Assembly (NCBI RefSeq): GCF_029910215.1
Contig: NZ_CP110395.1
Coordinates: forward strand, 3,720,001 to 3,784,000
From: Paraburkholderia sp. D15
GTDB lineage: Bacteria > Pseudomonadota > Gammaproteobacteria > Burkholderiales > Burkholderiaceae
Length of the DNA stretch: 64,000 nt
Direction of reading: 5' to 3'
Of this stretch, positions 21,767 to 50,359 are shown piece after piece. The position numbers and the translations under genes were made by a program. The notes under the pieces were generated by a model that saw only the letters and a list, made by a program, of their open reading frames with translations, did no database searches and was not told where the DNA came from. How positions within the stretch are numbered: position 1 is the stretch's first letter; the number at the start of each line of letters is the position of its first letter.

Positions 21767-22567
21767 ATGCGAATTCTGATTGCCGAAGACGACAGCATAC
21801 TCGCGGACGGTCTGGTTCGATCACTCCGCCAATCGGCCTATGCCGTAGACCACGTAAAGAATGGTATAGAGGCCGACGCCGCGCTCTCCGTGCAAAGTTT
21901 CGACCTGCTGATTCTCGATCTGGGCCTGCCGCGCATGTCCGGTCTCGAAGTGCTGCGCCGCCTGCGCGCACGCAATTCCACCCTGCCCGTGCTGATCCTG
22001 ACCGCCGCCGACAGCGTCGACGAACGCGTGAAGGGCCTCGACCTCGGCGCCGACGACTACATGGCCAAACCCTTCGCGCTGAACGAACTCGAAGCGCGCG
22101 TGCGCGCGCTGACCCGGCGCGGCGCGGGCGGCGGCCCGACGGTGGTGCGCCACGGCTCGCTGTCGTTCGATCAGGTCGGGCGGATCGCGTATGTCAACGA
22201 GCAGGTGATCGACCTGTCGGCGCGCGAACTCGGTCTGCTCGAGGTGCTGCTGCAACGGATCGGCCGGCTGGTTTCGAAGGAACAGCTGGTCGACCATCTG
22301 TGCGAATGGGGCGAGGAAGTCAGCAACAACGCAATCGAAGTCTACGTGCACCGGCTGCGCAAGAAGATCGAGCCGAGCGGCGTGCGCATCATCACCGTGC
22401 GCGGACTGGGCTACTGTCTGGAGAAGGCCGCGCCCGCGGCCGGCAGCCAGACACAGGCGGCATCCGAGGCCGAAGCCGGCGTCGCCGGGCCACCCGCTTC
22501 CGCCTCAGCTCCCGCCGCTCAATCCGAGCCGTCCGGCGCCATGCCGGCCAGCCACCACTTCAAGTAG
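21767..22567 (+). CDS. OmpR/PhoB-family response regulator (TctD-like)
   Basis: A 266-residue regulator: receiver domain residues 1-115 with the acidic pair in IAEDDSILADG, phospho-Asp in LLILDLGLPRMSG, Thr/Ser in LILTAADS and Lys in DDYMAKPF; then a winged-helix domain ending in NAIEVYVHRLRKKIEPSGVR and TVRGLGYCLE. About 40 extra Ala-, Pro- and Ser-rich residues form the C-terminal tail. Start chosen at MRILIAEDD. It forms a two-component pair with the kinase 9 bases downstream; resemblance to TctD suggests control of organic acid uptake, which the adjacent MHS transporter would fit. Confidence 0.88.
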   Translation: MRILIAEDDSILADGLVRSLRQSAYAVDHVKNGIEADAALSVQSFDLLILDLGLPRMSGLEVLRRLRARNSTLPVLILTAADSVDERVKGLDLGADDYMAKPFALNELEARVRALTRRGAGGGPTVVRHGSLSFDQVGRIAYVNEQVIDLSARELGLLEVLLQRIGRLVSKEQLVDHLCEWGEEVSNNAIEVYVHRLRKKIEPSGVRIITVRGLGYCLEKAAPAAGSQTQAASEAEAGVAGPPASASAPAAQSEPSGAMPASHHFK

Positions 22568-26104: not shown

Positions 26105-26181
<77 letters not shown>

Positions 26182-26194
26182 GTTTCAACGCGAA

Positions 26195-26225
26195 GGCCCG
26201 CACTCTCACGAGTGTGGGCTTTTTC
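26195..26225 (+). terminator. Rho-independent terminator after tRNA-Met
   Basis: GGCCCGCACTC and GAGTGTGGGCT form a strong stem with a TCAC loop, followed by TTTTCGTTTT, 14 bases after the tRNA. Confidence 0.85.
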
Positions 26226-26266
26226 GTTTTGGCGCGCGGTGAGCCGCTTGGTGAGCCATATCGCGC

Positions 26267-26984
26267 ATGCACAAGTTGCCCCATCTGATCAAAAATCGCT
26301 TCGGCGTTTATTACCTTCGGCTCGCTCGCAACGGCCAGGAGGTCAAACGGTCGCTGCGCACAAAGGACTTCCGGTATCGCGATCGAGCTGGCCAAAGGCG
26401 CCCGACGCTCGGAACTGAGCGCCGAACCTTTGCACCATGAACCTTCGACTGCGGGTTTCGTGGACTTTTTCGGCGCCCATTTTGACGACTTGGCGTCTGG
26501 CCTCGCAGACCTCCGCCAAGAAATGGCCGGGCTCCGAGCATTTCTCATGGCCGGCCAGCAGCAAGGAAACGAGTTGTCAGCAACGCGAGCGGACGACGAG
26601 ACGCCCTCGCCGCCATTCGAAGCGCCAACGAGCCTGGCAGATTGGCTCATGCGAGAGACCGAGACGCGCGGCTTCCCCATGCCTGATTCGGCCGTCATCA
26701 AGGCGCGAGTGGTCGCGGCAAATCAATCCGATTTGGGTGAGATCGCGTTGGTTTTGGCGGCAGAGTTGGTCGCCGCTGATAAGTCGAAGGCGAAACCCGG
26801 CGCGGGACAAGCGTCCCGCGTGGCGTTAAGCGCAATGCCCGTTGAGGGCGGCGCGTCGGCCTTGGAGCCTAAAAGCCGCGTGTGCCTGTGGTGCCAAAAC
26901 GCCGACGGGCGGTGGGATATCAAGATTCACCCGTTCGACCGCGAAGGGAAAGTCGGCAGGTTGATCGCAACAGCACGCGCATGA
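26267..26984 (+). pseudogene. Integrase relic (tyrosine recombinase N-terminus, frameshifted, no catalytic domain)
   Basis: The ATG at 26267 begins MHKLPHLIKNRFGVYYLRLA and continues to RSLRTKDFR, the small N-terminal DNA-binding segment (DUF6538-like) of island integrases. The frame then stops at 26440. Skipping one base, the T at 26375, continues the protein as IAIELAKGARRSELSAEPLH and runs open to 26984. The extended part has coil-like helices (DDLASGLADLRQEMAGL) but no recombinase catalytic R-H-x-x-R or Tyr region, so the gene is both frameshifted and truncated or fused. Its place beside tRNA-Met supports the integrase reading. Confidence 0.65.
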
Positions 26985-27270
26985 GACGGGCGCTATCGAG
27001 GTTTCTCGGGCGCCGAAAAGGCGTCCCGCGTATGCCCCGCGCAGCGGTGCGGCCGGTGTATAACCAATAAAAAACATCGAAACTACAGGCCAGTCAATAA
27101 AACCCGAAATACCGATTCGCTCACGGTCCGTGGCTGTCCGTTGTGTGGTGCGTCGCTGATCACGGACATTCTCAAATCTTCGTGCGTCGTTTGGTCATGC
27201 ACGCGTCCATGTTCATTCGCCGAAAGACAAAACTGCCAAGGTTCGCAACTGCACAGTTAGATCGCATGAG

Positions 27271-29496
27271 TCAGATGGCGACCTTCCTGAAAGTGATGGA
27301 CACACGGCGACCGCGAGGCACTCCGTGCTCCTTGAGGCGTGCAGGGATCTCGTGATGCCATGCGCTCCGTGCCTCACCATCGAGAACAACCGCACTGCAG
27401 CGCGCAAGCGATTGAACGAATTTCGCGGTCTCCCCTGCGATCTTCCGTGTGAAGATCATGTCCCAAGTTTCCAGCAAACTGATGGTGACGACCGGGCCGC
27501 GGAAGCAATCCTTGCAATCGATGTGCTTCGAGATGCCCTGCTTACCTTCGTAGTTGTTGACGATCACCTGGTCTGGCAACTCTGGAACGACACCCGACGC
27601 GAGCAGACGTTCCGCTAAGTCCCCAGCCCATTCCGGAAGCGGGCCGAGATAGTTGGCAGGCGCAACTTGCCGTGCTCTGTAATCATAGCGCCAGCCATAA
27701 TGCTGGACCCGACGCTTCATCAACTGATCCCATTCAGCGGAGTCGATGGCAGCGATTAATTGGCCTTCTTCGTCGCCATCGATGAAGTTGGGCAGCACTT
27801 TCAGGCCAAGTGGCTCACCGGCGCTCTTCACGGCCGGCTTGGATACCGGTTTGATTGCAGGCTTCTTTGGCGTGATGGCAAATGAGGCCTGCGTGGAAGA
27901 GATGCTGGGCGAAAAGGGAGCCTTATCCTGTCGGGGCAAGGTGCTCGATGGACGCGCCAGCCGACGAGAGATGCTAGCAATCGCCAGCCATTCTTTGAAG
28001 CGAGACTGATTCAGCCTGCGATCGAATGTCACGCCTTGGCTCATCGCGAACTCAACCCGGCCAGTGACCGTCAAGGCGGATTGCCTCTCCAACTCAAGAA
28101 CACCGCCTCCGACAAGCTGGATCGTTGTGTTTTCCAACACAACTAGCTGGTCGAGTGAGTAAGGGCATTCTTCGAATGCGAGGGTTCGGGCTTCCAGTTG
28201 AACCGCTTGGTCTTCGAAGTCTGCTCGATACCAACTACCACGGGTTCCTAGCTTGTACTCGCCCCATGTCTGCGCGCCCGCCGTCATCACGACTACGCCT
28301 TCGTCGACTCGCCATGCCACATTGTCTGGCGTCAGCGCATGCCAAGGCCCTGAACCGTTCGTGCCAGCCTGCTGCCAAGTCTTTAAAGCCAAAAGCTTTC
28401 TGCATTCCGTGAGTCCACGAAACTGCTTGGGCAAGGCGCTATAGCCCTGCAAATAGCCAGCGAGGGTCATGCCAGTCCACCAGACCACTGGGGGGATTGC
28501 TGGCCAATCCTCGCGCCAGCTGGAAAACTTATCAGGCGACGGCCGGAGTAGTAGCAATTGAAGCGTCAAGGCAAGGAAGTCGTCGTGAGCCCCAAGGTCT
28601 TGCACGGTTCCCCTATCGTCAAGGAGCGCCCTCGTACCCTCAAAAAGTTTCGCTAGCCGAGTCTCATCCTCGCCAAGATCTCGCGCATGCTCACAAATGT
28701 CGTTTAGGATGGCCCTCGCCCGCCATTCATCCAATATTCCTGGCTGCGAGAACTTCGCAACCATGGCTCGCCAGAGCTTGGGAAGCTGATCCTGCTCCGC
28801 ACTATCGACCCAGAGCGCAGTTCGCCACCAGGGCGCATGCAGCCGTTCGACGGACTCAGCGCTTGCAACACCGGAGCAAAGCAGGTCGCAGAACAATTCA
28901 ACCCATGGATCAATCACAGGGACAGCGAAAGCCGCCATCGCGGCAGCGCCTCGCAATGCGTTCCAGTTCGATGGAGGCTGCCAAGGACTCTTTTCCGGCG
29001 GCGTGCTCTTCGGCGGTGCCACTTGCGAGAACGCGCCAACTTTGAACGGCTGGGAGGGAACCTCCATGTCCGCGAAGTTGCGAGCCATCGCCAAGAGCTT
29101 AGCCTTTACAGCCGCCGAACTCACGCTGAAATGGTCAACCGCAAACGCCGGCAGCGGGCCAGCCCACGATACAACGGTGTCGCTGGCCCTCAAACCGCGC
29201 AAGGTGGATTCGGTCCATGCGCCATCCCTCCACACCTTGATGGTGTTGTCCGGAAGGCTCTGGGCATCGAACCAGATGCCGACGGATGACGAGTTGCTAG
29301 AATCACTGCCACAAGCCTGCTGCGTGCCGAGCAGCAAGTGCCCTGCCGGCGGAATTATCCATTCGCTGCTGAGAAATTGCAGAAAGGCTTCTTGGTCCAA
29401 AATCAGACCAAGAAGACGCACACCGCCAGCAGCTTGCTGCTCGGGTGCGGGCGCAGATGCAAGTAGCTCCAACTGGCCGCCGGACATAGAGGTCAT
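27271..29496 (-). CDS. Large protein with C-terminal AlkB-type 2OG-Fe(II) oxygenase domain
   Basis: A 741-residue protein. The last 177 residues (about 565-741) form an AlkB-family dioxygenase: KVLPNFIDGDEEG at its start, the YGWRYDYRAR nucleotide-lid region, VIVNNYEGKQGISKHIDCKD with the iron ligands H658 and D660, the second His in SAWHHEIPAR, and the 2-oxoglutarate arginines in GRRVSITFRK. Such enzymes remove alkyl groups from DNA or RNA. Residues 1-500 form an unrecognised Trp-rich region, joined by a Pro/Lys/Ser linker. Start chosen at 29496, where ATGA overlaps the helicase stop; an ATG 30 bases upstream is possible. Third gene of a three-gene operon; lower GC than the chromosome. Confidence 0.82.
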   Translation of the reverse strand: MTSMSGGQLELLASAPAPEQQAAGGVRLLGLILDQEAFLQFLSSEWIIPPAGHLLLGTQQACGSDSSNSSSVGIWFDAQSLPDNTIKVWRDGAWTESTLRGLRASDTVVSWAGPLPAFAVDHFSVSSAAVKAKLLAMARNFADMEVPSQPFKVGAFSQVAPPKSTPPEKSPWQPPSNWNALRGAAAMAAFAVPVIDPWVELFCDLLCSGVASAESVERLHAPWWRTALWVDSAEQDQLPKLWRAMVAKFSQPGILDEWRARAILNDICEHARDLGEDETRLAKLFEGTRALLDDRGTVQDLGAHDDFLALTLQLLLLRPSPDKFSSWREDWPAIPPVVWWTGMTLAGYLQGYSALPKQFRGLTECRKLLALKTWQQAGTNGSGPWHALTPDNVAWRVDEGVVVMTAGAQTWGEYKLGTRGSWYRADFEDQAVQLEARTLAFEECPYSLDQLVVLENTTIQLVGGGVLELERQSALTVTGRVEFAMSQGVTFDRRLNQSRFKEWLAIASISRRLARPSSTLPRQDKAPFSPSISSTQASFAITPKKPAIKPVSKPAVKSAGEPLGLKVLPNFIDGDEEGQLIAAIDSAEWDQLMKRRVQHYGWRYDYRARQVAPANYLGPLPEWAGDLAERLLASGVVPELPDQVIVNNYEGKQGISKHIDCKDCFRGPVVTISLLETWDMIFTRKIAGETAKFVQSLARCSAVVLDGEARSAWHHEIPARLKEHGVPRGRRVSITFRKVAI

Positions 29497-30599
29497 CGTT
29501 CTAGGATGGGAGGAGGAGGAAGACAAGCCAATTGTGCCTCCAAAAGTAAGTTCGGCCCATTGACAAGAAGCAAGGCGTCCCTAGCGCGGGCACAGAGCAT
29601 GTACAAGCGCCGTTGCTGGACCGGGAGAATCATTGGCAACGAGCGGTCCAGGTCTTGAAGGTACACGGTATCGAACTCAAGCCCTATGGCCGATTCGCCA
29701 GAGATGATGGTGATGCCGGCATCGCGCAAGCGAATAGCATCCTCCGCCCTAGCTTCGGCATTGCTAGTGTACATGTCGACGCGAGCATCGGGCAATCGGG
29801 CCCTGAGCAAAGCATGCAGAACATTGATGTCTTCCTGGCGATAAACGATAACCCCGATAGAGCCGCCGCGGTTTCCGAATCTGACGGCAACCTGTTGGGC
29901 CAACGCTTCCCAGGTAGTTACCGTGATCATCCTAGGTGGCTCGTTGGACCGCCCACGCTGCGCCGGCGCTGGCGGGACATAGCGGTCCTGGTGGAAACAC
30001 TCAATCAGTTCAGCAATCTCAAACGTGTTGCGGTGATTGACCGTCAGAACGTGCATCTCTGTGAAACCGGCGGCCTGCAAATCCGCAACGTGGCAACCGC
30101 CATCTTCTGTCGATTGATTTTCATCCGCAAAGACTGAGACGGTTAAAGCCCCGAAGCGACAAGCCCAGATGAAGAACTCTCTCGGCAGATTTTGTCCTTC
30201 GTCGACGATGAGGTGGTCAATCGACGGCGCAACGTTGGCCTCAGCATAGTTTTGAAGAACTTGTTGCCAGTTGAATTGATACGGATAGAGCTGGGGAATG
30301 TTGTGCCCGAAGGTATTCCTATAGTGGTTCCAGACGAGCGTATGCATCGTGGTGCTGGTGACCGGTGCATTCCCCTGATCTTGAGAAATCTGCGTCGCCA
30401 GAGCGGCAAGCAGCCGGTTCTTGGTGACCACGGTCACCCGGCGCTGATAGTCAGGCCCGGCAAGAATATTAGCCTTCCAGAGAGCTACGGAGGTCTTCCC
30501 GGACCCAGGTGGCCCAACCACCAGAATCGACTGGTCGGGATCCGCCATGAACACCTGACGCTGCTCTTCGATCAGAGCACTAAAACTTGGCAATCTCAT
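29493..30599 (-). CDS. UvrD-like superfamily 1 helicase
   Basis: A compact 368-residue SF1 helicase or ATPase. It has a Q-motif (EEQRQVF), Walker A GPPGSGKTS at 29-37, Walker B DHLIVDEGQNLPREFF near 128-143, motif III VSVFADENQS, and in the C-terminal half SAIGLEFDTVYLQDLD with YMLCARARDALLLV as motifs V and VI. It lacks the large 1B/2B insertions of full UvrD, so it resembles the short helicases found in defence and repair cassettes. Both ends overlap its neighbours by ATGA, coupling it to the methyltransferase upstream and the AlkB-domain gene downstream. Confidence 0.85.
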   Translation of the reverse strand: MRLPSFSALIEEQRQVFMADPDQSILVVGPPGSGKTSVALWKANILAGPDYQRRVTVVTKNRLLAALATQISQDQGNAPVTSTTMHTLVWNHYRNTFGHNIPQLYPYQFNWQQVLQNYAEANVAPSIDHLIVDEGQNLPREFFIWACRFGALTVSVFADENQSTEDGGCHVADLQAAGFTEMHVLTVNHRNTFEIAELIECFHQDRYVPPAPAQRGRSNEPPRMITVTTWEALAQQVAVRFGNRGGSIGVIVYRQEDINVLHALLRARLPDARVDMYTSNAEARAEDAIRLRDAGITIISGESAIGLEFDTVYLQDLDRSLPMILPVQQRRLYMLCARARDALLLVNGPNLLLEAQLACLPPPPILER

Positions 30600-31447
30600 C
30601 GGTTAACCTCGCTTAGCGGAATCAGCATCGGCACGCGCGTGAATAGGGCGTAGTGGATATTGCGTGGCTTATCGCCGTCTGTCAGCAATTCGGTTTCGAC
30701 CACCTCGCACTTGAAGCCAGCAGCTTCCATGCGGCTCTGAAACTCGGGGAATGCTAGGCGCCGCTCAGGCAGCGCCGAGTTCGTGTACAGCACTGCCACC
30801 GGACCCGGGCCGATACGGCCGCATGCGTCGACGATCTCACGCACGATCAGCTCAATATTGAGCGACGCGCTGGCCAGCAGGTAGGACAAGACCACAACGG
30901 TCCAGCCCAGCTTGGGCTGCCCGAAATCGATGCTGTTTATTGAGCCAGCGAAAGACACCCTCGTCTGAGGGCTTAACCCTCCAGCTCCCTGCGCGGCAAG
31001 CGCGAGTTCAAGTCCGAGGGCGCACATTTGCACCGAAGTGTCGACGCCAAAATATCGGAAGGCAACTTCGTTGCCAGCCACGTTGGCGAGTGCCAAACCG
31101 GCGGTAAACGGTCCGCACCCAATGTCGAGCATCGTGGCGTTGTTCAGGCGCTGTGGGCTGTCCACGAGTTTTTGGAACGCGTGGATCAATTCGGGAACGT
31201 GCCCCTTTTGGTTGAAGAGGGCGTAAAGCATGACCCGATCTCTTGGGGAGAGGTCTTCAATTGGCTCATCGAAGTTCGCCTGCCCGCCGCCGATAGCGTG
31301 GCTAAAGATCCAGCCGCTCGACTTGCCTAATCGCGTCCCCTGCTGGCCCGTCTCTCTGGGGTCGTTGTTGAGCGGGTCGACAATGCATGTGCGGCGCACA
31401 TGCCCATACCAAGGCCTGACTGTGATCAAGCTGCCCCCTAGCTTCAT
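30596..31447 (-). CDS. Class I SAM-dependent methyltransferase
   Basis: A 283-residue protein with SAM motif I MLDIGCGPFTAG at about 106-117, an acidic motif II at YFGVDTS, and strand 4 WTVVVLSYLLASA. It lacks the D/N/S-PP-Y motif of DNA adenine or N4-cytosine methyltransferases and the PCQ motif of C5 enzymes, so a DNA target is not shown; RNA, protein or small-molecule targets are possible. It is the first gene of the operon with the helicase and the AlkB-domain protein. No clear ribosome-binding site precedes the ATG, so the first 40 residues are uncertain. Confidence 0.8.
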   Translation of the reverse strand: MKLGGSLITVRPWYGHVRRTCIVDPLNNDPRETGQQGTRLGKSSGWIFSHAIGGGQANFDEPIEDLSPRDRVMLYALFNQKGHVPELIHAFQKLVDSPQRLNNATMLDIGCGPFTAGLALANVAGNEVAFRYFGVDTSVQMCALGLELALAAQGAGGLSPQTRVSFAGSINSIDFGQPKLGWTVVVLSYLLASASLNIELIVREIVDACGRIGPGPVAVLYTNSALPERRLAFPEFQSRMEAAGFKCEVVETELLTDGDKPRNIHYALFTRVPMLIPLSEVNR

Positions 31448-31510
31448 TTGTTAGCAAATGTAAGAAGCTGATTGTCACCCACGCTGGTCACGGCAGCAAC
31501 TGAATATATA

Positions 31511-31680
31511 TGGAGGTGACCCTGTAATTCAGGACACGTGGACACCGTTAGGTTGATGACGCAGCAGCCCGCCTAAACTCGCGAGGCAAGCGGTATTTCA
31601 GGGCTTTGCGCGGGTGGCGCTCGTTGTAATGCTCAAAGAGCACGATGTGTATCTCGGCCATCCAAGACCCCCGCGACCGA
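31511..31680 (-). mobile_element. IS3-family element relic (3' end only)
   Basis: A minus-strand frame ending with TAA at 31548 reads WMAEIHIVLFEHYNERHPRK then ALKYRLPREFRRAAASST. This is the C-terminus of an IS3-family OrfB transposase (the YNxxRPHxxL-like region). Beyond the stop, TGGAGGTGACCCTGTAATTC looks like the terminal repeat of such an element. Everything upstream of about codon 40 from the end is missing. It sits between the methyltransferase operon and the type VI effector island and has truncated the gene beginning at 31843. Confidence 0.75.
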
Positions 31681-31843
31681 CTCCAATCCATTGCGACCGA
31701 ACGTAGGCAGTCTTTGGAGTGTTCTTAATTTCGCCGCTTAGAACGCCCACAGCCATGCGGCTCGCATCGGAAATTTCGGATTTCGCGCTTGATGGTCCGC
31801 CAGCGCCGATTTTCGCGACTTGATTGCTTAGAGTACGCGCCAT
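31598..31843 (-). pseudogene. Truncated divergent gene upstream of PAAR
   Basis: From ATG at 31843 the minus strand reads MARTLSNQVAKIGAGGPSSA then KSEISDASRMAVGVLSGEIK and NTPKTAYVRSQW before running into the IS relic near 31680, where it continues in an unrelated frame to a stop at 31598. The gene start faces away from the PAAR gene, 21 bases apart. The same codons, with two in-frame stops, occur at the mirror position beside the second effector (37571-37711). The family is not recognised. Confidence 0.55.
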
Positions 31844-31850
31844 CGAAACT
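31765..31850. repeat. Inverted repeat, left arm (upstream of PAAR)
   Basis: A 28-base block at 31823-31850 and a 22-base block at 31765-31786, separated by 36 diverged bases. Both blocks occur as perfect reverse complements at 37564-37591 and 37628-37649, again 36 bases apart. In both places the 28-base block ends 14 bases before a start codon. The blocks are the most conserved parts of a duplicated divergent gene start and may also hold the shared promoter. Confidence 0.85.
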
Positions 31851-31864
31851 TCGGCAGCTTTGCG

Positions 31865-32413
31865 ATGAGCGCGTTTATTCGAGAGGGCGACACCACCGAT
31901 CACGGCGGCACCGTTCTTCAGTGTTCCCACGAACATAAGGTGGATGGCAAACCGATCGCCCGCTTCGGCGATATGGTTTCGTGCCCGAAATGCGACGGTG
32001 TTTATCCGATCGTCAAGATATCGCCGCGCGGCATGTCGATGGGCGGTAAGCACCCTGCGTTCGAAGGCGACAGGACCGCTTGCGGAGCAAGGCTGATTGC
32101 ATCCCAGGCTGTCGCCACCGCGCAACCGGTCAGCGGGTTGGGCAATCCGGGCGCCTCACGGGCGCCGTCGGTCAGTCATGAAAAAGCGAGCGACGCGTCA
32201 GGACCTTATCGGGGCCGTTTCCAGGTGTTCGACGAGACCACCGGCCAGCCGATCGCGAATCACCCGTACACCATTCACGCTTCCGACGGGCATGTCATTG
32301 CCGGAAACACGGACGCGAATGGGTACACCGAATGGCATGAAGGGGACGCGCCGGCTTCGCTTCGATTCGCTTCGCCGTCGACGCAGGTAAAAGGCTGGGC
32401 GGGCGACAAATGA
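31865..32413 (+). CDS. PAAR-domain type VI secretion spike protein
   Basis: A 182-residue protein. Residues 1-80 are a PAAR domain (REGDTTDHGGTVLQCSHEHK, GKPIARFGDMVSCPKCDGVY, GDRTACGARLI) that sharpens the VgrG spike and binds metal. After a short linker, residues about 112-170 (RGRFQVFDETTGQPIANHPY, TDANGYTEWHEGD) form the small beta domain often found after PAAR in Burkholderia. The stop overlaps the next gene as ATGA, so the effector is coupled to it and probably carried by it. No other type VI structural gene is present in the window. Confidence 0.88.
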   Translation: MSAFIREGDTTDHGGTVLQCSHEHKVDGKPIARFGDMVSCPKCDGVYPIVKISPRGMSMGGKHPAFEGDRTACGARLIASQAVATAQPVSGLGNPGASRAPSVSHEKASDASGPYRGRFQVFDETTGQPIANHPYTIHASDGHVIAGNTDANGYTEWHEGDAPASLRFASPSTQVKGWAGDK

Positions 32414-33144
32414 CCGGTAGCGCTTATGGCACCGGTGCCCGTTCAGCATCGGCGGCGTCGGGCGGCACCCAAACGACGAGTATTCAACTGCGCGGAACCG
32501 GCCTCGACCCTAGGGACAAAAAGGTTGTGTGCAAGGTCGTCTGCGTCTGCTCACGCAGGCCCGACGTAGGAGTATCGAGGCAGAACCTCAAACAGCAATG
32601 CGTATCGCGCAATCTCCGCGACGTCGATCGCAGCATGAACTGGCAAAGCCCATACAAGTCCGAAGTCAATTACGACATGACCCAAGTGCCGCCGGTCCCA
32701 ATCATGCGCTCTGTCAATCCGCTGGAAACCCACCCGTATCTGCCCGCGTGGATCGCCAGATACTGGCCCGGCGGCAAAAGCAATTACCCGGCCGGCACGG
32801 GTGCGATTCGCCGCCCGGATGTAGTCATCGTCAAGGACGGTTCCCTGCCGCCCACACAGAACAACATCAAGAACATCGTCGAAATCAAGTTTCCACCGCA
32901 GGCACCCTCCCTGGATCAAGCCGAAGACTACGTCTCAATCGCTGGCTCGGCAGAGAAAGTCGTGATTCTCGGACCGCAAAACTGCGACTGTCGGGAAGAC
33001 GATAAAGGAGAAAATCCCGTCAAAGCTGCCGTCTCGGACGCGCTTTCCGAACTCGGAAAGTCGCTTACCGCGATCTTCAACCCGAAGCTGCCCACGACAG
33101 GCTTCGGCCTGCCACCGCCCTTTCCGCCGCTTCCGGTTCCCTGA
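32410..33144 (+). CDS. VRR-NUC nuclease effector of type VI secretion (TseV-like), copy 1
   Basis: A 244-residue protein with a PD-(D/E)XK nuclease core: GAIRRPDVVIVKDG supplies the metal-binding Asp and IVEIKFPP the E-x-K pair, the VRR-NUC arrangement. The N-terminal half has a Cys cluster (VVCKVVCVCSRR, then KQQCVSRNLRD) and the C-terminus is Pro-rich, ending PPPFPPLPVP. Relatives are DNA-damaging type VI effectors. It is preceded by a coupled PAAR gene and followed by two TsiV-type immunity genes, which fits an antibacterial toxin. Confidence 0.85.
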   Translation: MTGSAYGTGARSASAASGGTQTTSIQLRGTGLDPRDKKVVCKVVCVCSRRPDVGVSRQNLKQQCVSRNLRDVDRSMNWQSPYKSEVNYDMTQVPPVPIMRSVNPLETHPYLPAWIARYWPGGKSNYPAGTGAIRRPDVVIVKDGSLPPTQNNIKNIVEIKFPPQAPSLDQAEDYVSIAGSAEKVVILGPQNCDCREDDKGENPVKAAVSDALSELGKSLTAIFNPKLPTTGFGLPPPFPPLPVP

Positions 33145-33179
33145 TAGCCTATGCCGCCTGACTTCTGCGGGTTTGCTCC

Positions 33180-34274
33180 ATGACCGACATAACGCCAGAC
33201 TTTCTGCAGTGGGCGAGAGCCAATCGATCCAGGGCACTCGTCGCCAATGCTCTCCTCGAACCGCGCTATCCGAATGAAGGAATCGGCGCCGCCTTTGTCA
33301 TCAGGGCCTGCCTCTATTTCGAGAAAGCGTTCGATGCTGTCGTCCGTGAAGCGTTGGCCCAAACGTTCGACGAGTTCGTGGTGTCGATGGGCGACGAGAA
33401 GCTGACCTACATGTGGCACAACGGCAAAGCCGCCCGCCCCATGTCGAAAGTGAAGTCGTTGCAAGCCGTCGCTTCCGGACTCGGTCCCGAAGATCGATTC
33501 GACTTTGACTTCATGAGCGGCGAGCGCCCAGAGGACGCCGGCCTTTGGGAGTTCCATGTGGGAGGGATTCGTCGATGGCAGGAAAAGCTCGATAATCGCG
33601 GCTTCAACGCCCTGTCGTTTTCCTGGCCCGTCTTCGCCGTCCAGGAGCGCCCCAACTCCTTTGCCAGGTTGTTCTTCGATGCCGCGTCGCGTCTGAAAGC
33701 GGCTCACGGCCATGCGGGTGTCGCCGTCAACCTTTCGCCGACCGGTCGCGAGGAAAACGAAGCAACCGAATACTGGGCCAGTCAAAGGATGCCCGGCCTC
33801 GACGTCGGATTCCCTGGGGATCTGTCGGTTCGGCAACTCAAAGGGCAACTGAAAACGGTCGATTGGCTAACAGCGATCAGCAAGCCAATGCTGGACGCGG
33901 TGGGCGGTCTGGTTGGACTGCGCTCGCATCTACCGCCGGGTTGGTTCTCGATTGGCGACTATGGACACGGCGTCGTTATCCGCGCTGGCGCGTTGCCTGA
34001 GAGTGGAATTTCCAGCGATGAGAAAAAGCCACCGGTCAATCCACCCGCTTACGTCATTCTGGATGCGGCATTGCGATCAATTCGCGCAACCGAAATGGAC
34101 ATCCTGCAACGCGGCACCGTCAACGGCGACGCCCCGGTCTACAACACCAGATCATCAACCGCAGCATGGCTACGCCGCTTTGAAACCGACGAAAACGGTC
34201 TTCTTGCCACCAAAGCGGCCCTGCTCGACACGCCGCCGCTGCAACCGTCGAACGTGTTGCCAAATCCGCTTTGA
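33180..34274 (+). CDS. TsiV/DUF3396 type VI immunity protein, copy 1
   Basis: A 364-residue protein of the DUF3396 family, known as immunity proteins for VRR-NUC effectors. Shared markers with the other two copies are the N-terminal NALLEPRYPNEG, FDFDFMSGE, HGHAGVAVNLSPTGREENEA, TVDWLTAISKPMLD and LPPGWFSIGDYGHGVVIRAG. It probably binds and blocks the upstream nuclease in the cytoplasm. It is the most divergent copy over most of its length, yet its last 57 bases are identical to those of copy 2. Confidence 0.86.
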   Translation: MTDITPDFLQWARANRSRALVANALLEPRYPNEGIGAAFVIRACLYFEKAFDAVVREALAQTFDEFVVSMGDEKLTYMWHNGKAARPMSKVKSLQAVASGLGPEDRFDFDFMSGERPEDAGLWEFHVGGIRRWQEKLDNRGFNALSFSWPVFAVQERPNSFARLFFDAASRLKAAHGHAGVAVNLSPTGREENEATEYWASQRMPGLDVGFPGDLSVRQLKGQLKTVDWLTAISKPMLDAVGGLVGLRSHLPPGWFSIGDYGHGVVIRAGALPESGISSDEKKPPVNPPAYVILDAALRSIRATEMDILQRGTVNGDAPVYNTRSSTAAWLRRFETDENGLLATKAALLDTPPLQPSNVLPNPL

Positions 34275-34424
34275 TTGCTTGTCGACAAGAGCCCGTTCGC
34301 GCAACCCAACGCTTTGACCTACTAACACCAACGAACTAAAACTGCTCAACAAACCGCCAATCCTTGGATTCGATGACCTGTCGTCGCCCACGCTATTACC
34401 GTGCCCTAAGCAACCAACCATCAA

Positions 34425-35507
34425 ATGGACAACAATTTCTTGCAGTGGGCCAAAGAAAATCAATCAAAGGCCCTCATTCCGAATGCCCTATTGGAGCCTC
34501 GCTATCCGCACGAAGGCATCGGGGCCGCGCTCGTCATTCGGGCCGTTCTGTATTTCGAAGGAGCCTACGAGACGTCTGTTCGTCTCACATTGGCCGCTTG
34601 CCTCGATGAATATCTGGCGAGCTCCGGCGACGTCTTCAACTTTGTGTGGCACAACGGCAAAGCCTTCCAGACTTTCAAACGCGCCAAGCCAATGCGCAAG
34701 CTTGCGACGTCGCTCAAAGAAAACGATCGATTCGATTTCAACTTCACGAGCGGCGAACAGGCGAGCGACGCGGGGTTTTACGGTTTCCACACGTTCGGCA
34801 TGCGGGCATGGCAGCAGAAGATGGGCACGCGAGGCATCGACGTTGTCGAATTTTCGTGGCCCATGCTCGCGGTCCAGGAGAACCCCGACGTGTTCGCACG
34901 GCTATTTTTCAACGCAGCACAACGGCTGAACGCGATCCACGGTCATGCCGGGCACGCCGTCAACCTGTCGCCCGTCGCGCGGCAGGAGAATGAAGCGACC
35001 GAGTACTGGATCAGCCAAATGATGCCTGGTTTCGACGTCGGACCGGCAATCGACAACGCCACGCGCGACCTCAAAGGGCAAATCAAAACCGTGAGCTGGC
35101 TGACGGCGATCGACAAGGCAATGTTCGACAAGGTGGGCGGCGCGCGAGGACTGCGCGCCGAATTGCCCCCCTCGTGGTTCAGCCTGCACGACTACGGAGC
35201 TGGCGTGATCATTCGCGCCGGAGTGGAACCAAGCTCGGGCGATGCGGGAAGCGACGCTGAGCGGCCATGGCTTCCGCCCGCCTATGTTGTGCTCGATCAT
35301 GCGTTGCTCCCGATCCGCGCGACCAGCCTCGACGTCCTCCAACAAGGGACGATCAACGGCGACGCGCCGGTCTACGGCACGGTCGCGTCGACCAACGCAT
35401 GGCTACGCCGCTTTGAAACAGATGAAAACGGTCTCCTTGCCGCCAAAGCAGCCCTGCTCGACACGCCGCCGCTGCAACCGTCGAACGTGTTGCCAAATCC
35501 GCTTTGA
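34425..35507 (+). CDS. TsiV/DUF3396 type VI immunity protein, copy 2
   Basis: A 360-residue paralogue of copy 1 with the same markers (FVWHNGKAFQTF, HGHAGHAVNLSPVARQENEA, LPPSWFSLHDYGAGVIIRAG). By eye it is closer to copy 3 on the opposite strand than to copy 1. It starts 150 bases after copy 1 and converges with copy 3, leaving 108 bases between their stops with no clear terminator. It may protect against effector copy 2 or a related nuclease from competitors. Confidence 0.85.
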   Translation: MDNNFLQWAKENQSKALIPNALLEPRYPHEGIGAALVIRAVLYFEGAYETSVRLTLAACLDEYLASSGDVFNFVWHNGKAFQTFKRAKPMRKLATSLKENDRFDFNFTSGEQASDAGFYGFHTFGMRAWQQKMGTRGIDVVEFSWPMLAVQENPDVFARLFFNAAQRLNAIHGHAGHAVNLSPVARQENEATEYWISQMMPGFDVGPAIDNATRDLKGQIKTVSWLTAIDKAMFDKVGGARGLRAELPPSWFSLHDYGAGVIIRAGVEPSSGDAGSDAERPWLPPAYVVLDHALLPIRATSLDVLQQGTINGDAPVYGTVASTNAWLRRFETDENGLLAAKAALLDTPPLQPSNVLPNPL

Positions 35508-35615
35508 CCACGCCTTGATAAGAGCCGACTCCCTTGCCCCACCAGTCTCAATTCACTCCGCCGCCGGAGAATCACACGCCTTACCTGAGCAAACGGGAAT
35601 ACGCACACCGGCGCA

Positions 35616-36698
35616 TCACAACGGGTTCGGCAATGCGTTCGACAAGTCAAGGGGCGGTGTATCGAGCAAGGCCGCCTTCGCAGCAAGCAGGCCGTCGCCG
35701 CTGGTCTCGAAGCGGCTAAGCCACGCGTTCGTCGACGAGAACGTGTTATAGACCGGCGCATCGCCGTTGACCGTGCCTTGCTGGAGAACATCAAGACCAT
35801 TCACGCGCACGAGCCGCAATGCACGATCGAGGACAACGTAGGCCGGCGGCGGAAACGATTTACCACCTTCCGTTACTGCCGCGCCGGATTCCGGCCAGAC
35901 ACCGGCCCGAATGACAACCCCAGCGCCGTAATCGTTCAGGCTGAACCATGAGGGCGGCAGTTCGCCGCGCAGCCCACGTACGCCGCCGGCCTTACCTAAC
36001 ATCGCCACGTCGATCGCCGTCAACCACCCAACCGTCTTGATCTGCCCTTTGAGATCACGCACGGCATTCGCGGTGGGAGGGCCCACGTCAGTCCCCGGCA
36101 TCATCTGACTGATCCAGAACTCAGTCGATTCGTTTTGCTGACGCGCTACCGGCGAAAGGTTGATGGCGTGTCCTGCATGTCCATGGACGGCGTTGAGTCG
36201 CTGAGCCGCGTTGAAGAAAAGACGGGCGAATGCGTCGGGGTTGTCCTGCACCGCCACCATGGGCCACGAGAACGCGAGAACATCGATGCCTCGCGTGCCC
36301 ATCTTCTCTTCCCATGCCGGCATACCGAAAACGCGGAATGACCATAGGCAAGCGTCGGAAGGTTGTTCCCCGCTCATGTATTGAAAATCGAAGCAGTCGT
36401 TTTCGCCGAGCGACGCGGCAAGGACACGCATCGGTTTGGCCTTGTCGGCGGTTTGCGCCGCCTTGCCGTTGTGCCAGACGAACTTGAAGACGTCACCTGT
36501 TGCGGCCCGAAACTCGTCAAAGCAGTCGGCTAGTGCGAGCCGGACCGATGTCTCGTAGGCTCTTTCAAAATACAGAACCGCCCGCACTACGAGCGCGGCA
36601 CCGACGCCTTCGTGCGAATGACGAGGTTCCAGCAACGCATTCGGAATAAGGGCGTTCGACTGATTCTCTTTCGCCCACAGCAAATAGTCCTTGTCCAT
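35616..36698 (-). CDS. TsiV/DUF3396 type VI immunity protein, copy 3
   Basis: A 360-residue paralogue (MDKDYLLWAKENQSNALIPN, FVWHNGKAAQTAD, HGHAGHAINLSPVARQQNES, LPPSWFSLNDYGAGVVIRAG). It follows effector copy 2 after 15 bases on the minus strand, so it is that effector's most likely cognate immunity protein. Orientation is opposite to copies 1 and 2, forming the inner junction of the inverted array. Confidence 0.85.
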   Translation of the reverse strand: MDKDYLLWAKENQSNALIPNALLEPRHSHEGVGAALVVRAVLYFERAYETSVRLALADCFDEFRAATGDVFKFVWHNGKAAQTADKAKPMRVLAASLGENDCFDFQYMSGEQPSDACLWSFRVFGMPAWEEKMGTRGIDVLAFSWPMVAVQDNPDAFARLFFNAAQRLNAVHGHAGHAINLSPVARQQNESTEFWISQMMPGTDVGPPTANAVRDLKGQIKTVGWLTAIDVAMLGKAGGVRGLRGELPPSWFSLNDYGAGVVIRAGVWPESGAAVTEGGKSFPPPAYVVLDRALRLVRVNGLDVLQQGTVNGDAPVYNTFSSTNAWLSRFETSGDGLLAAKAALLDTPPLDLSNALPNPL

Positions 36699-36713
36699 CG
36701 GAAAGTCGTCCAG

Positions 36714-37454
36714 TCAGGGAAGCGGAAGCGGCGCGATGGGAGGCGGAAGGCCGAGTCCTGGAAACTGTGGCCGGCTGATGGCGATCTGTCGCAACTTCTC
36801 GCCTAGCCCCGAAAGCATGCTCGAAACTGTAGACGTAGCGGGATGCTCGCCGCCATCGTCTTGAGCGCAATCACAATCATCCGGCGTCAGGACTGTGACC
36901 TTGGACGCCGAACCAGCAATGCGGGTGTAGGCCGCTATCTGACGATCGTCATCGCCTGCCATCTGTGGCGGAAATTTTATCTCGACGATCTTTTCTATGT
37001 TGTCCTGCGTCGGCGGCAAGCTGCCGTCGTTGACGATCACCACGTCTGGACGACGTACTGCGCCTGAACCGGCCGGATATCGGTCGAGTCCGCCAGGCCA
37101 GTATTTCTGAATCCAACCGGGCAAGTACGAATGAGGCTCCAATGCATTCGACGAGCGTGTGATCGGCGCGGGCGGCTCACAACTCATGTCGTAATTGACT
37201 TCCGCCTTGTAGGGGCTCTGCCAGTCCATTGATCTATCGACATCGCGCAGGTTCCGGGAGACACATTGTTGTTTCAGGGCTTGTCCGGAGGCACCCGCAT
37301 CCGGTCGACGATTGCAAACGCAGAGCGCCTTGCAGATGACCTTTTTGTCGATGGGTGAAAGTGGAGACAGGTCGAGCCGAACCGTGGTCGCTTGCCCCAA
37401 GCCGTTGGACGTGCCGCCGGAGCTAGAACCGGTGTTATAGGCTTTGCCGCTCAT
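36714..37454 (-). CDS. VRR-NUC nuclease effector of type VI secretion (TseV-like), copy 2
   Basis: A 246-residue homologue of copy 1 with the same Cys cluster (VICKALCVCNRRPDAG, KQQCVSRNLRDVDRSM) and intact nuclease core: GAVRRPDVVIVNDG and IVEIKFPPQ. The C-terminus also ends Pro-rich (PPPIAPLPLP). Unlike copy 1 it has no PAAR gene in front; a 32-codon frame occupies that place and overlaps it by ATGA. Delivery would need the PAAR encoded at 31865 or another carrier. Confidence 0.84.
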   Translation of the reverse strand: MSGKAYNTGSSSGGTSNGLGQATTVRLDLSPLSPIDKKVICKALCVCNRRPDAGASGQALKQQCVSRNLRDVDRSMDWQSPYKAEVNYDMSCEPPAPITRSSNALEPHSYLPGWIQKYWPGGLDRYPAGSGAVRRPDVVIVNDGSLPPTQDNIEKIVEIKFPPQMAGDDDRQIAAYTRIAGSASKVTVLTPDDCDCAQDDGGEHPATSTVSSMLSGLGEKLRQIAISRPQFPGLGLPPPIAPLPLP

Positions 37455-37549
37455 TTTTCGCCGATCCCACTTGTGGCCTGCATCAACGGCGACTCGAACC
37501 GACTTGCTCCGCGCGCGCCCTCATTAGCTCCTTGAAAAACCGCGTCCAT
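37451..37549 (-). CDS. 32-codon mini-ORF in the place of a PAAR gene
   Basis: ATG at 37549 opens MDAVFQGANEGARGASRFES and ends ...SGIGEK at a TGA that overlaps the effector ATG as ATGA, exactly as the real PAAR gene overlaps effector copy 1. The start codon lies 14 bases from the conserved 28-base block, the same distance as the PAAR start at 31865, and both are preceded by TTGCG. No PAAR sequence remains. It may be the scar of a PAAR deletion that still provides translational coupling, or a small leader peptide. Confidence 0.45.
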   Translation of the reverse strand: MDAVFQGANEGARGASRFESPLMQATSGIGEK

Positions 37550-37563
37550 CGCAAGTCCCAGCA

Positions 37564-37649
37564 AGTTTCGATGGCGCGTACTCTAAGCAATTAATGTGAG
37601 CAAAACGGCCGCGACGAGCCGTAGCGTGCGAAATCCGAAATTTCCGATG
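37564..37649. repeat. Inverted repeat, right arm (upstream of effector copy 2)
   Basis: Perfect reverse complements of the two blocks at 31765-31786 and 31823-31850 (22 and 28 bases), with the same 36-base spacing. Together with the left arm it brackets the inverted effector-immunity array. Confidence 0.85.
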
Positions 37650-37711
37650 TGAACCGCATGGATACGGACAGTTTGAACAGGGAAACAAAGAAAATTCCGA
37701 AGCTTGCCTAA
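37571..37711 (+). pseudogene. Decayed copy of the divergent gene upstream of the effector
   Basis: Reading from ATG at 37571 gives MARTLSN then a stop; after ten codons and a second stop the frame continues RAKSEISDVNRMDTDSLNRE and TKKIPKLA before a third stop at 37709. This aligns codon by codon, without gaps, with the truncated gene at 31843 (MARTLSN..., KSEISDASRM..., EIKNTPKTA). It is therefore a dead paralogue. The rest of the gap up to 37859 holds no gene I can support, apart from AAGGAGG just before the next start. Confidence 0.6.
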
Positions 37712-37859
37712 ACAGTTTGGCTTCTCGCGACACGATCAAAAGCATCTTCCGTGAACTTCTCCAAACCACCCGCTGTCTCGACACTACAACCCACCACATC
37801 AAGCGCCGGCCGACAACCTTCCGGCCCGCCCTAAATTACCCCCTCAAGGAGGTTCCCCG

Positions 37860-38231
37860 ATGTCATTCCGCACCACCACGCTGACCGCGGCCACCGCCTC
37901 GCTCGCCTCACTTATCGCGCTCGCCACGTTTGCCGCCGCCACCTCATCGAGCGCACAAGCGCAAACACCCGCCCCCGACAACCAGTGGCGCACCACACAA
38001 ACCACGCTCTCCACGCTGCTTCAGGACGGCTACAAAATCGTCGCGGTCGTCAACGACACCCGCAGCGGCGCAAGCTCCGCCGACACGATCTTCGTACAGC
38101 GCGATCAAAGCGCGTTCAAATGCATCGATCCGCAGCAGCCCGAAGCCAAAACGAAAACGGCGGCCATGCCGCCGGTCTGCTACGAACTGGTGCCACCAAT
38201 CGGTGCGCCGGCCACCTCCGAATCGAAGTAG
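37860..38231 (+). CDS. Small secreted protein of unknown function
   Basis: A 123-residue protein with a signal peptide (about 35 residues, ending SSSAQAQ before TPAPDNQW). The mature part contains one conserved-looking segment, LLQDGYKIVAVVNDTRSG, and two Cys (FKCID, PPVCYEL) that could form a disulfide. A strong ribosome-binding site (AAGGAGG) precedes the ATG. GC and codon use match the chromosome, so the accessory region seems to end before this gene. Function not recognised. Confidence 0.75.
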   Translation: MSFRTTTLTAATASLASLIALATFAAATSSSAQAQTPAPDNQWRTTQTTLSTLLQDGYKIVAVVNDTRSGASSADTIFVQRDQSAFKCIDPQQPEAKTKTAAMPPVCYELVPPIGAPATSESK

Positions 38232-49681: not shown

Positions 49682-50359
49682 CTAGCCCTCGATCCGCCCG
49701 CGCGTCACCCCAAGCAGACTTGCCATCGCCGCGCGCGCCGCATCCGCATCCCGCTCGCGGATCGCTTCGAACACGGCGGTATGTTCGTCGAGCGACGCGT
49801 TATACACGTCAGCGCGCTTCGCATTCAACCGTAGCTGCGCTTCCAGCGTCCGTTCGATCAACGTGCCCAGCGGTATCAGCAGTTCGTTGCTGCACGCGCT
49901 CAGCACGCTCAGATGGAACGCCAGATCGGCGCGCACCCATTCGTCGACATTGCGCGCCGCCACCATCGCGGCATGCGCTTGCGTCAGCGCGTCAAACGCG
50001 ACGTCGGTATGCGACGCCGCCGCGAGACCCGCCGCGTACGGCTCGATCATCTCGCGCATTTCCTGAAGCTTGAGCGCGAACGTCATCGGCTCGGCGACGC
50101 GCGAATACCAGTCGAGCACGTCGACATCCAGCAGGTTCCACGCTTGCCGCGGCCGTACCCGTGTGCCGACCCGCGGACGCGACTCGATCAGCCCTTTCGA
50201 GGTCAGCGTGCGCAAGGCCTCGCGCAACACCGTGCGACTCACGCCGAAGGTTTCCATCAACTCCGCCTCGCGCGGCAGGATCGATTCGGGCGCGTAGTCG
50301 CCGCGCAGAATCGCGGTCGCCAGCAGGTGGGCGACGCGCCCGTGCAGATCGTGCTGAAT
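49682..50359 (-). CDS. GntR-family (FCD) regulator, probably of the galactonate gene; non-standard start
   Basis: The winged helix begins VIQHDLHGRVAHLLATAILR and continues LPREAELMETFGVSRTVLRE and LIESRPRVGTRVRPR; the FCD ligand domain (EMREMIEPYAAGLAAASH, ADLAFHLSVLSACSNELL) completes the protein. The HTH needs codons from about 50360, yet that frame has no ATG or GTG between the stop at 50426 and a TTG at 50260, which would cut off the first helices. An ATT at 50359, six bases after AGGAG, is the best-placed start. Divergent from galactonate dehydratase with a palindrome between, as for DgoR. Confidence 0.8.
   Translation of the reverse strand: MQHDLHGRVAHLLATAILRGDYAPESILPREAELMETFGVSRTVLREALRTLTSKGLIESRPRVGTRVRPRQAWNLLDVDVLDWYSRVAEPMTFALKLQEMREMIEPYAAGLAAASHTDVAFDALTQAHAAMVAARNVDEWVRADLAFHLSVLSACSNELLIPLGTLIERTLEAQLRLNAKRADVYNASLDEHTAVFEAIRERDADAARAAMASLLGVTRGRIEG

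Follow-up and report, generated by a model that had tools for sequence, protein, structure and literature searches.

A stretch of 64,000 nucleotides from the genome of Paraburkholderia sp. D15 (contig NZ_CP110395.1, positions 3,720,001 to 3,784,000; hereafter the window) contains a cassette of three overlapping genes, which encode a candidate methyltransferase (P0001), a compact helicase of superfamily 1 (SF1; P0002) and a longer protein ending in an AlkB-type dioxygenase domain (P0003). Judged from its sequences, this methyltransferase-helicase-AlkB set appears to be a new gene system of putative function. The explanation that we favor, with a probability of roughly 0.45, is that it is a mobile conflict cassette, most likely serving in defence against phages or other invading elements by means of nucleic-acid methylation and oxidation.

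Conservation, transfer and distribution of the cassette

The sequence-only reading of this DNA had proposed three minus-strand genes with ATGA overlaps at both junctions, running in the order methyltransferase, SF1 helicase, AlkB protein as one coupled unit, and all of the open reading frames (ORFs) and both overlaps were found at the positions listed in Table 1. The same gene order is common to the window, L001 (a Burkholderiales metagenome-assembled genome), L048 (an IMG/VR contig), L052 (from the same genus as the window), L037/L053 (whose third gene is truncated where the stretch ends) and L076 (from another genus of the same family). Because the order is identical in six of the six loci examined, the coupling of the trio is not attributable to chance. 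In every one of the six loci, the genes for the helicase and the AlkB protein share 4 bp, provided that an internal ATG serves as the start codon in the window and L076. The overlap of the methyltransferase and helicase genes is 4 bp in four of the six and 20 bp in L052, and a 1-bp gap separates these genes in L037. No promoter was found by a promoter scan. The identities to P0001, P0002 and P0003, respectively, are 84, 83, and 76% in L001, 42, 47, and 38% in L052, 38, 37, and 32% in L048, and 38, 39, and 27% in L037/L053.

The distances between operons agree across all three gene pairs (Mantel r 0.961–0.970 for 23 operons, with none of 2000 permutations as high for any pair), a correlation that is compatible with co-transfer and with shared descent alike; the set consisted of 18 contigs matched by equal size and five of the loci, L076 being excluded as a near-duplicate of the window. 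The window and L076 are 97.5% identical over 4633 bp and their flanks are unrelated, the sole further match in the 19 kb stretch compared being one of 67% at 21901–22434, beyond the flanks. At the upstream edge of this shared block, a fragment was recognized by eye that resembles the 3' end of a transposase gene, presumably of the IS3 family. By these comparisons of sequences the three genes are one co-inherited, mobile, and sporadic cassette, and the proposal that they form a single cassette is borne out by the gene order, the overlaps, the Mantel agreement and the block shared across genera.

Table 1. Positions in the window of the cassette, of the regions of its proteins and of adjoining features.
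Feature	Position	Strand	Remarks
P0001, class I SAM methyltransferase, first cassette gene	30596..31447	-	283 aa; relatives in six loci
P0002, compact SF1 (UvrD/HelD-core) helicase	29493..30599	-	368 aa
P0003, AlkB-tailed third protein	27271..29496	-	741 aa
ART-fold-like N-terminal region of P0003, DarT/Tpt1-like	29032..29421	-	residues about 26–155
Helical ARH-like region of P0003, ARH3-like	28354..28974	-	residues about 175–381
ALKBH8-type Fe(II)/2-oxoglutarate dioxygenase domain of P0003	27274..27819	-	residues about 560–741
ATGA overlap, methyltransferase/helicase	30596..30599	-	
ATGA overlap, helicase/AlkB protein	29493..29496	-	
Block shared with L076, taken as the limits of the transferred unit	27026..31657		4.63 kb, just these three genes
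Fragment like 3' end of an (assumed) IS3-family transposase gene	31548..31660	-	by eye; upstream edge of shared block
tRNA-Met (CAT) adjoining the insertion at 26189–37843	26105..26181	+	

Full-length P0003 was detected in one of 399 genomes sampled from the order (that of the window itself) and in two of 144 genomes of the genus, and full-length P0001 in one of the 399 genomes of the order sample and two of 378 in a family sample. The helicase search matched 12 of 369 genomes in a class sample, which contained one cassette beyond that of the window (genome G614, locus L037). These counts derive from searches in which few candidates were scored per genome and large groups were sampled, and a copy found in the genus search (G818) is missing from the family listing. 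Generic methyltransferase matches of about 20–29 bits (38 of the 40 genomes with a match in the family sample, two of three in the order sample), matches to the AlkB domain only (24 of the 25 genomes with a match in the order sample) and a partial match of 26 bits in G843 were regarded as non-members. Among 50,697 phage records, P0003 and P0002 were unmatched (P0001 was not tried there) and matches to PHROGs were only weak. P0001 had no match in 72,556 plasmids; 36 plasmid records matched P0003, none of them covering 80% of it, and the matches listed comprised its C-terminal part only. A helicase profile run against viral contigs returned 600 pattern stretches, none confirmed, and was uninformative, since L048 carries a relative.

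The protein-database relatives numbered 47 for P0003, 672 for P0002 and 225 for P0001. Linkage among them was assessed by equating contigs of the same size, using all 47 entries for the third protein, the 120 listed of the 672 for the helicase and the 120 listed of the 225 for the methyltransferase. By this proxy, a listed helicase or methyltransferase accompanies the third protein on 32 of its 47 contigs (18 carry both), and a listed helicase is present on 59 of the 120 listed methyltransferase contigs. The third protein is clearly linked to the others, whereas the linkage of the methyltransferase and the helicase is incomplete, to which the limited listings and search sensitivity also contribute. 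The sequence-only reading would have been undermined by homologs occurring mostly as unlinked single genes; this is not the situation for the third protein, but for the methyltransferase the linkage extends to only about half of the listed contigs.

The three proteins

The alignments on which the following observations are based included 31 of the 47 relatives of P0003 (A1), 29 of the 225 of P0001 together with two loci (A2), and 24 of the 672 of P0002 together with four loci (A3). No Pfam model matched P0001 past the cut-off (best E 0.19). However, its alignment conserves GCGPFT (motif I) and Y-x-G-x-D, in agreement with the earlier assignment of this protein to the class I methyltransferases dependent on S-adenosylmethionine (SAM). 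The methyltransferase (METHYLTRANSFERASE) also has a conserved SYLLAS block and, in 32 alignment rows, no DNA-methylase motif IV, whether of the DPPY or the PCQ type. The amino-methylases of DNA are marked by D/N/S-PP-Y/F and those of the C5 type by a PCQ-type motif; by motif, P0001 is not a DNA methylase of either kind. When 32 members of its family were examined with Pfam, the resemblances were weak and divided among models: Methyltransf_25 was matched in 11, Methyltransf_31 in 10 and Rsm22 in nine. Searched with the family profile, the PDB yielded ten sequences, headed by trans-aconitate 3-methyltransferase (E 0.00093) with METTL17 after it (E 0.0066); Trm9 was not among them.

A methyltransferase related to P0001 directly precedes an ALKBH8-type AlkB gene on Picosynechococcus plasmids (L032, L113, and L114, which are close copies and are counted as one case), scoring 92–101 bits in comparison to 22–29 bits for generic methyltransferases. 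This pairing, found in a distant phylum and in another gene setting, is the best argument that the methyltransferase and the AlkB domain may share one substrate. It differs from the cassette in that its AlkB protein is standalone and no strong match to the P0002 family is present in these stretches (best 25 bits). On pAQ5 (L032), the gene preceding the pair encodes an AAA_33/KTI12-like P-loop protein that also shows weak similarity to WYL-type models, and a reverse transcriptase gene lies further upstream; in L113 and L114 a CRISPR gene of the repeat-associated mysterious protein type is located three genes upstream.

P0002 had been described as a compact UvrD-like helicase with intact Walker A and B motifs, and both of these (GPPGSGKT and DEGQ) are indeed conserved in its alignment. 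Among solved structures it is closest to 6wvk (E 4.1e-26), an entry submitted under the name DNA helicase IV that we take to be HelD; the NCBIfam HelD model matches P0002 with E 1.7e-6. Relatives of P0002 are encoded directly after DrmA-DrmB in three plasmid loci (L027, L028, and L029), and another follows a protein kinase gene on a plasmid of Rhizobium; this helicase family is therefore, as far as gene neighborhoods indicate, common to several operons, conflict-type ones among them.

The third protein consists, from its N- to its C-terminus, of regions predicted to have ART-like (ADP-ribosyltransferase) and ARH-like (ADP-ribosylhydrolase) folds, a further alpha/beta region, a linker and an ALKBH8-type AlkB domain. 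The last of these is matched by Pfam 2OG-FeII_Oxy_2 (E 8.2e-18, residues 602–737), and its iron and 2-oxoglutarate ligands are intact, with the HxD motif (H658, D660), the second histidine (H715) and both arginines (R731/R737) that had been noted earlier present in 34 of the 34 aligned rows reaching this region, that of the window included. The nearest solved AlkB relative is human ALKBH8, and the domain scores 155–213 bits to standalone ALKBH8-type proteins as opposed to 18–50 bits, or values below the threshold, to the other AlkB proteins fetched. By sequence, the domain is thus assigned to the ALKBH8 type with its catalytic residues intact. The AlkB domain noted earlier is hence confirmed, but because it is of the ALKBH8 type rather than the Escherichia coli AlkB type, hydroxylation or RNA modification would be as likely as the methyl removal proposed at first.

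Several related proteins were observed in other contexts. In L031 (Roseobacter denitrificans pTB4), an ALKBH8-type AlkB, 46% identical to the P0003 domain, is encoded on a 5.8 kb plasmid together with a BrnT/BrnA pair. A standalone ALKBH8-type AlkB with a CxxC motif is present at L049:9983–10579, on a viral contig that by eye also encodes a terminase-like protein. The AlkB protein of L048 (9965–12772) has approximately 200 extra C-terminal residues with no Pfam match.

The first two thirds of P0003 had been left uninterpreted. As a fold search with the whole model showed only the AlkB part, the N-terminus was modeled separately, and in this model, which is of moderate quality, it resembles mainly folds of the ART and ARH types. 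Residues 26–519 have no Pfam match at E up to 0.05, and hence no RNA recognition motif (RRM), and a viral fold library gave no match at E 0.001 or below. The polar positions that at least 80% of 35 rows conserve within residues 26–155 are limited to E45, D77, D143, and Q149; no arginine or histidine is among them, although a residue-by-residue mapping onto DarT was not possible. With no conserved catalytic residues, a catalytically active ADP-ribosyltransferase/hydrolase pair in this region is of low probability.

Genomic setting

The sequence-only reading had placed the cassette in a tRNA-adjacent island with type VI genes, and the tRNA-Met and the neighboring PAAR and TsiV genes were all confirmed. 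All of the 23 same-genus relatives listed match the window through a major facilitator superfamily gene and tRNA-Met. Of six that were read further, four resume at window positions 37828–37983 (83–1173 nt past the end of the tRNA match), a fifth picks up again at 49686 and the sixth reaches its contig end without resuming. Because relatives resume homology just after the tRNA, approximately 11.65 kb (26189–37843) is considered to be an insertion at tRNA-Met relative to other genomes of the genus. Besides the cassette, it carries a PAAR gene, a gene with a weak VRR-NUC match and a group of three TsiV immunity genes, and no integrase was found among the seven other island ORFs that were scanned. 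Within it (31865–37454), two effector-like genes, one at 32410–33144 with no Pfam match and another at 36714–37454 with the weak VRR-NUC match, flank the three TsiV paralogs in mirrored order.

In L052, the cassette is followed by genes for an SbcD-like phosphoesterase (PF00149) and a YhaN-like AAA_27 protein (PF13514), and then, two genes from the cassette, by a DUF4297-HerA pair, both members of which are named as defence proteins by PADLOC and NCBIfam. L052:12876–17771 and L081:263–3172 (from a same-genus genome) may represent a five-gene version of the cassette or a defence island. The genes upstream of the cassette in L001 resemble, by eye, those for three tyrosine recombinases and one small protein of coiled-coil type, with Pfam support limited to a weak integrase match in one of the recombinase-like genes (E 0.019). 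L076 has insertion sequence (IS)-type genes near the cassette.

Proposed function and alternative explanations

In the proposed mechanism, the helicase would open or scan the target, providing motor-assisted access to it, and the methyltransferase would mark a site that is more likely RNA, perhaps tRNA or rRNA. The AlkB domain would then oxidize this mark or a related one, the two enzymes acting on one site either sequentially, in the manner of human ALKBH8, or against each other as writer and eraser. The ART/ARH-like N-terminus may recognize an infection state or a substrate, rather than carry out ADP-ribosyl catalysis. The more specific proposal, viz. a new type of prokaryotic immune system in which a methyl mark is oxidized (probably on RNA), with a minimal SF1 motor as the supplier of substrate and a degenerate ART/ARH-fold region as the sensor of infection, is tentative, and we consider it rather doubtful in this complete form.

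The set is called new because no PADLOC, NCBIfam, or Pfam model and none of the literature searched, which mostly did not cover subscription-only papers, names it; the sequence-only reading had likewise known of no named system with these three families, and AlkB as a part of an antiphage defence system was not found in the same literature. In PADLOC 2.0.0, P0003 has no match at E up to 1, P0001 has one partial match (E 2.1e-6) and P0002 has partial helicase matches (best E 3.2e-6). Restriction-modification requires an amino or C5 DNA methyltransferase motif, which P0001 does not have, and a restriction endonuclease, which is absent from the Pfam matches of the trio and has no convincing match in PADLOC or NCBIfam; a write/erase scheme of this kind on DNA is accordingly set back. 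DISARM combines a methyltransferase with helicases. The P0002 relatives that follow DrmA-DrmB recall this system, but the cassette has no DrmA/DrmB match in PADLOC (the same models match in L027–L029) and no methyltransferase of DNA type. ARMADA is an anti-phage operon with a methyltransferase and several helicases, one of them UvrD/GajB-like; its hallmarks are helicases of the YprA-like and BrxHII-like kinds together with a PglX-like methylase, and the terms AlkB and dioxygenase are absent from the text describing it (PMC12458937). DarT and ARH enzymes have folds that are also predicted for the N-terminus of P0003, which differs in having no sequence-level family match and no conserved catalytic set.

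A number of observations weigh against the favored explanation. PADLOC yields no convincing match for any of the three proteins, and no recognizable nuclease or killing enzyme is present in the trio by Pfam, PADLOC, or NCBIfam. Only one locus, L052, lies near a catalogued defence pair, and the neighbors in the window are type VI effector/immunity genes. Of the 59 contigs with a listed methyltransferase and helicase, 41 show no listed third protein, which counts against an obligatory trio; this figure is softened by the limited candidate set that the third-protein search scored, the weakest matches of which still covered 96% of the query at 36% identity, or were longer fragment matches. The preference for RNA is itself weak, as a small-molecule enzyme outranks METTL17 and the generic Pfam models outnumber Rsm22, and the SbcD- and YhaN-like genes of L052 would suit DNA better. 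Lastly, according to its abstract, a 2014 study of ALKBH8 proteins (PMC4051686) observed DNA repair in vitro for all enzymes tested, and its text reports that the Rhizobium etli ALKBH8 matched the efficiency of E. coli AlkB on damaged single-stranded DNA phage.

The strongest alternative, although we consider it unlikely, is a module for RNA modification or repair, in which hypermodification of tRNA or rRNA would shield the RNA of the host against ribonuclease toxins or against damage caused by phages, with chemistry (a methyl ester, then hydroxylation) like that of human ALKBH8. In the latter protein, an AlkB domain, of the type present in P0003, is fused to a Trm9-like methyltransferase and acts on the wobble uridine of tRNA by hydroxylating mcm5U, and an animal AlkB-methyltransferase fusion is also described in the above study (PMC4051686). 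The same source reports that repair by the Rickettsia felis and R. denitrificans ALKBH8s was substantially lower or negligible in comparison to that of R. etli, and it favors RNA modification for both of them, the substrate being still unidentified (PMC4051686). The 46% identical plasmid AlkB of L031 is possibly the R. denitrificans enzyme tested there. The KTI12-like gene preceding the cyanobacterial pair on pAQ5 is also in accordance with an RNA module. Compared with human ALKBH8, the cassette has its methyltransferase as a separate gene that is not recognizably Trm9-like, adds an SF1 helicase and ART/ARH-like regions, and is mobile in bacteria. Against an RNA module, Trm9 was not retrieved from the PDB with the methyltransferase profile and no RRM was found by Pfam. 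Further, in an Agrobacterium knock-out the wobble base of tRNA-Gly(UCC) was unchanged, and the in vitro repair of DNA noted above likewise argues against an RNA module (PMC4051686).

A cargo that serves a mobile element, by counter-defence or competition between elements, rather than its host, appears distinctly improbable. It would account, where domain names were assigned by eye, for the VirD4-like and integrase-like genes of L048, whose contig is classed as viral, for the ParB- and DUF932-like genes near the cassette in L052 and for the recombinase-like trio in L001, but no phage or conjugation genes were recognized beside the cassette among the ORFs read in the window or L076, although both of these copies lie in DNA that is itself inserted or IS-rich. 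Rated lower again is a module for repair of alkylation damage, in which AlkB would strip methyl lesions, the helicase would open DNA and the methyltransferase would be a passenger or regulator. The AlkB fold, the SF1 motor, the L052 genes downstream of the cassette and the ability of bacterial ALKBH8s to repair DNA in vitro (PMC4051686) are consistent with this. Nevertheless, the genome has two other AlkB-type genes, the co-inherited methyltransferase is left without a role, the P0003 domain is far from the other AlkB proteins fetched, and an Agrobacterium ALKBH8 mutant was not sensitized to methyl methanesulfonate or chloroacetaldehyde (PMC4051686).

The physiological substrate of the bacterial ALKBH8-type oxygenases was posed as an open question in 2014 (PMC4051686). 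Through shared inheritance and gene overlaps, the cassette links an ALKBH8-type domain to a particular methyltransferase and helicase, which makes this question directly testable. If the more specific proposal of an immune system based on an oxidized methyl mark is correct, it would provide the first biological role for bacterial ALKBH8 proteins, and, if the cassette is antiviral, it would be the first defence system known to us that relies on oxidative demethylation or hydroxylation.

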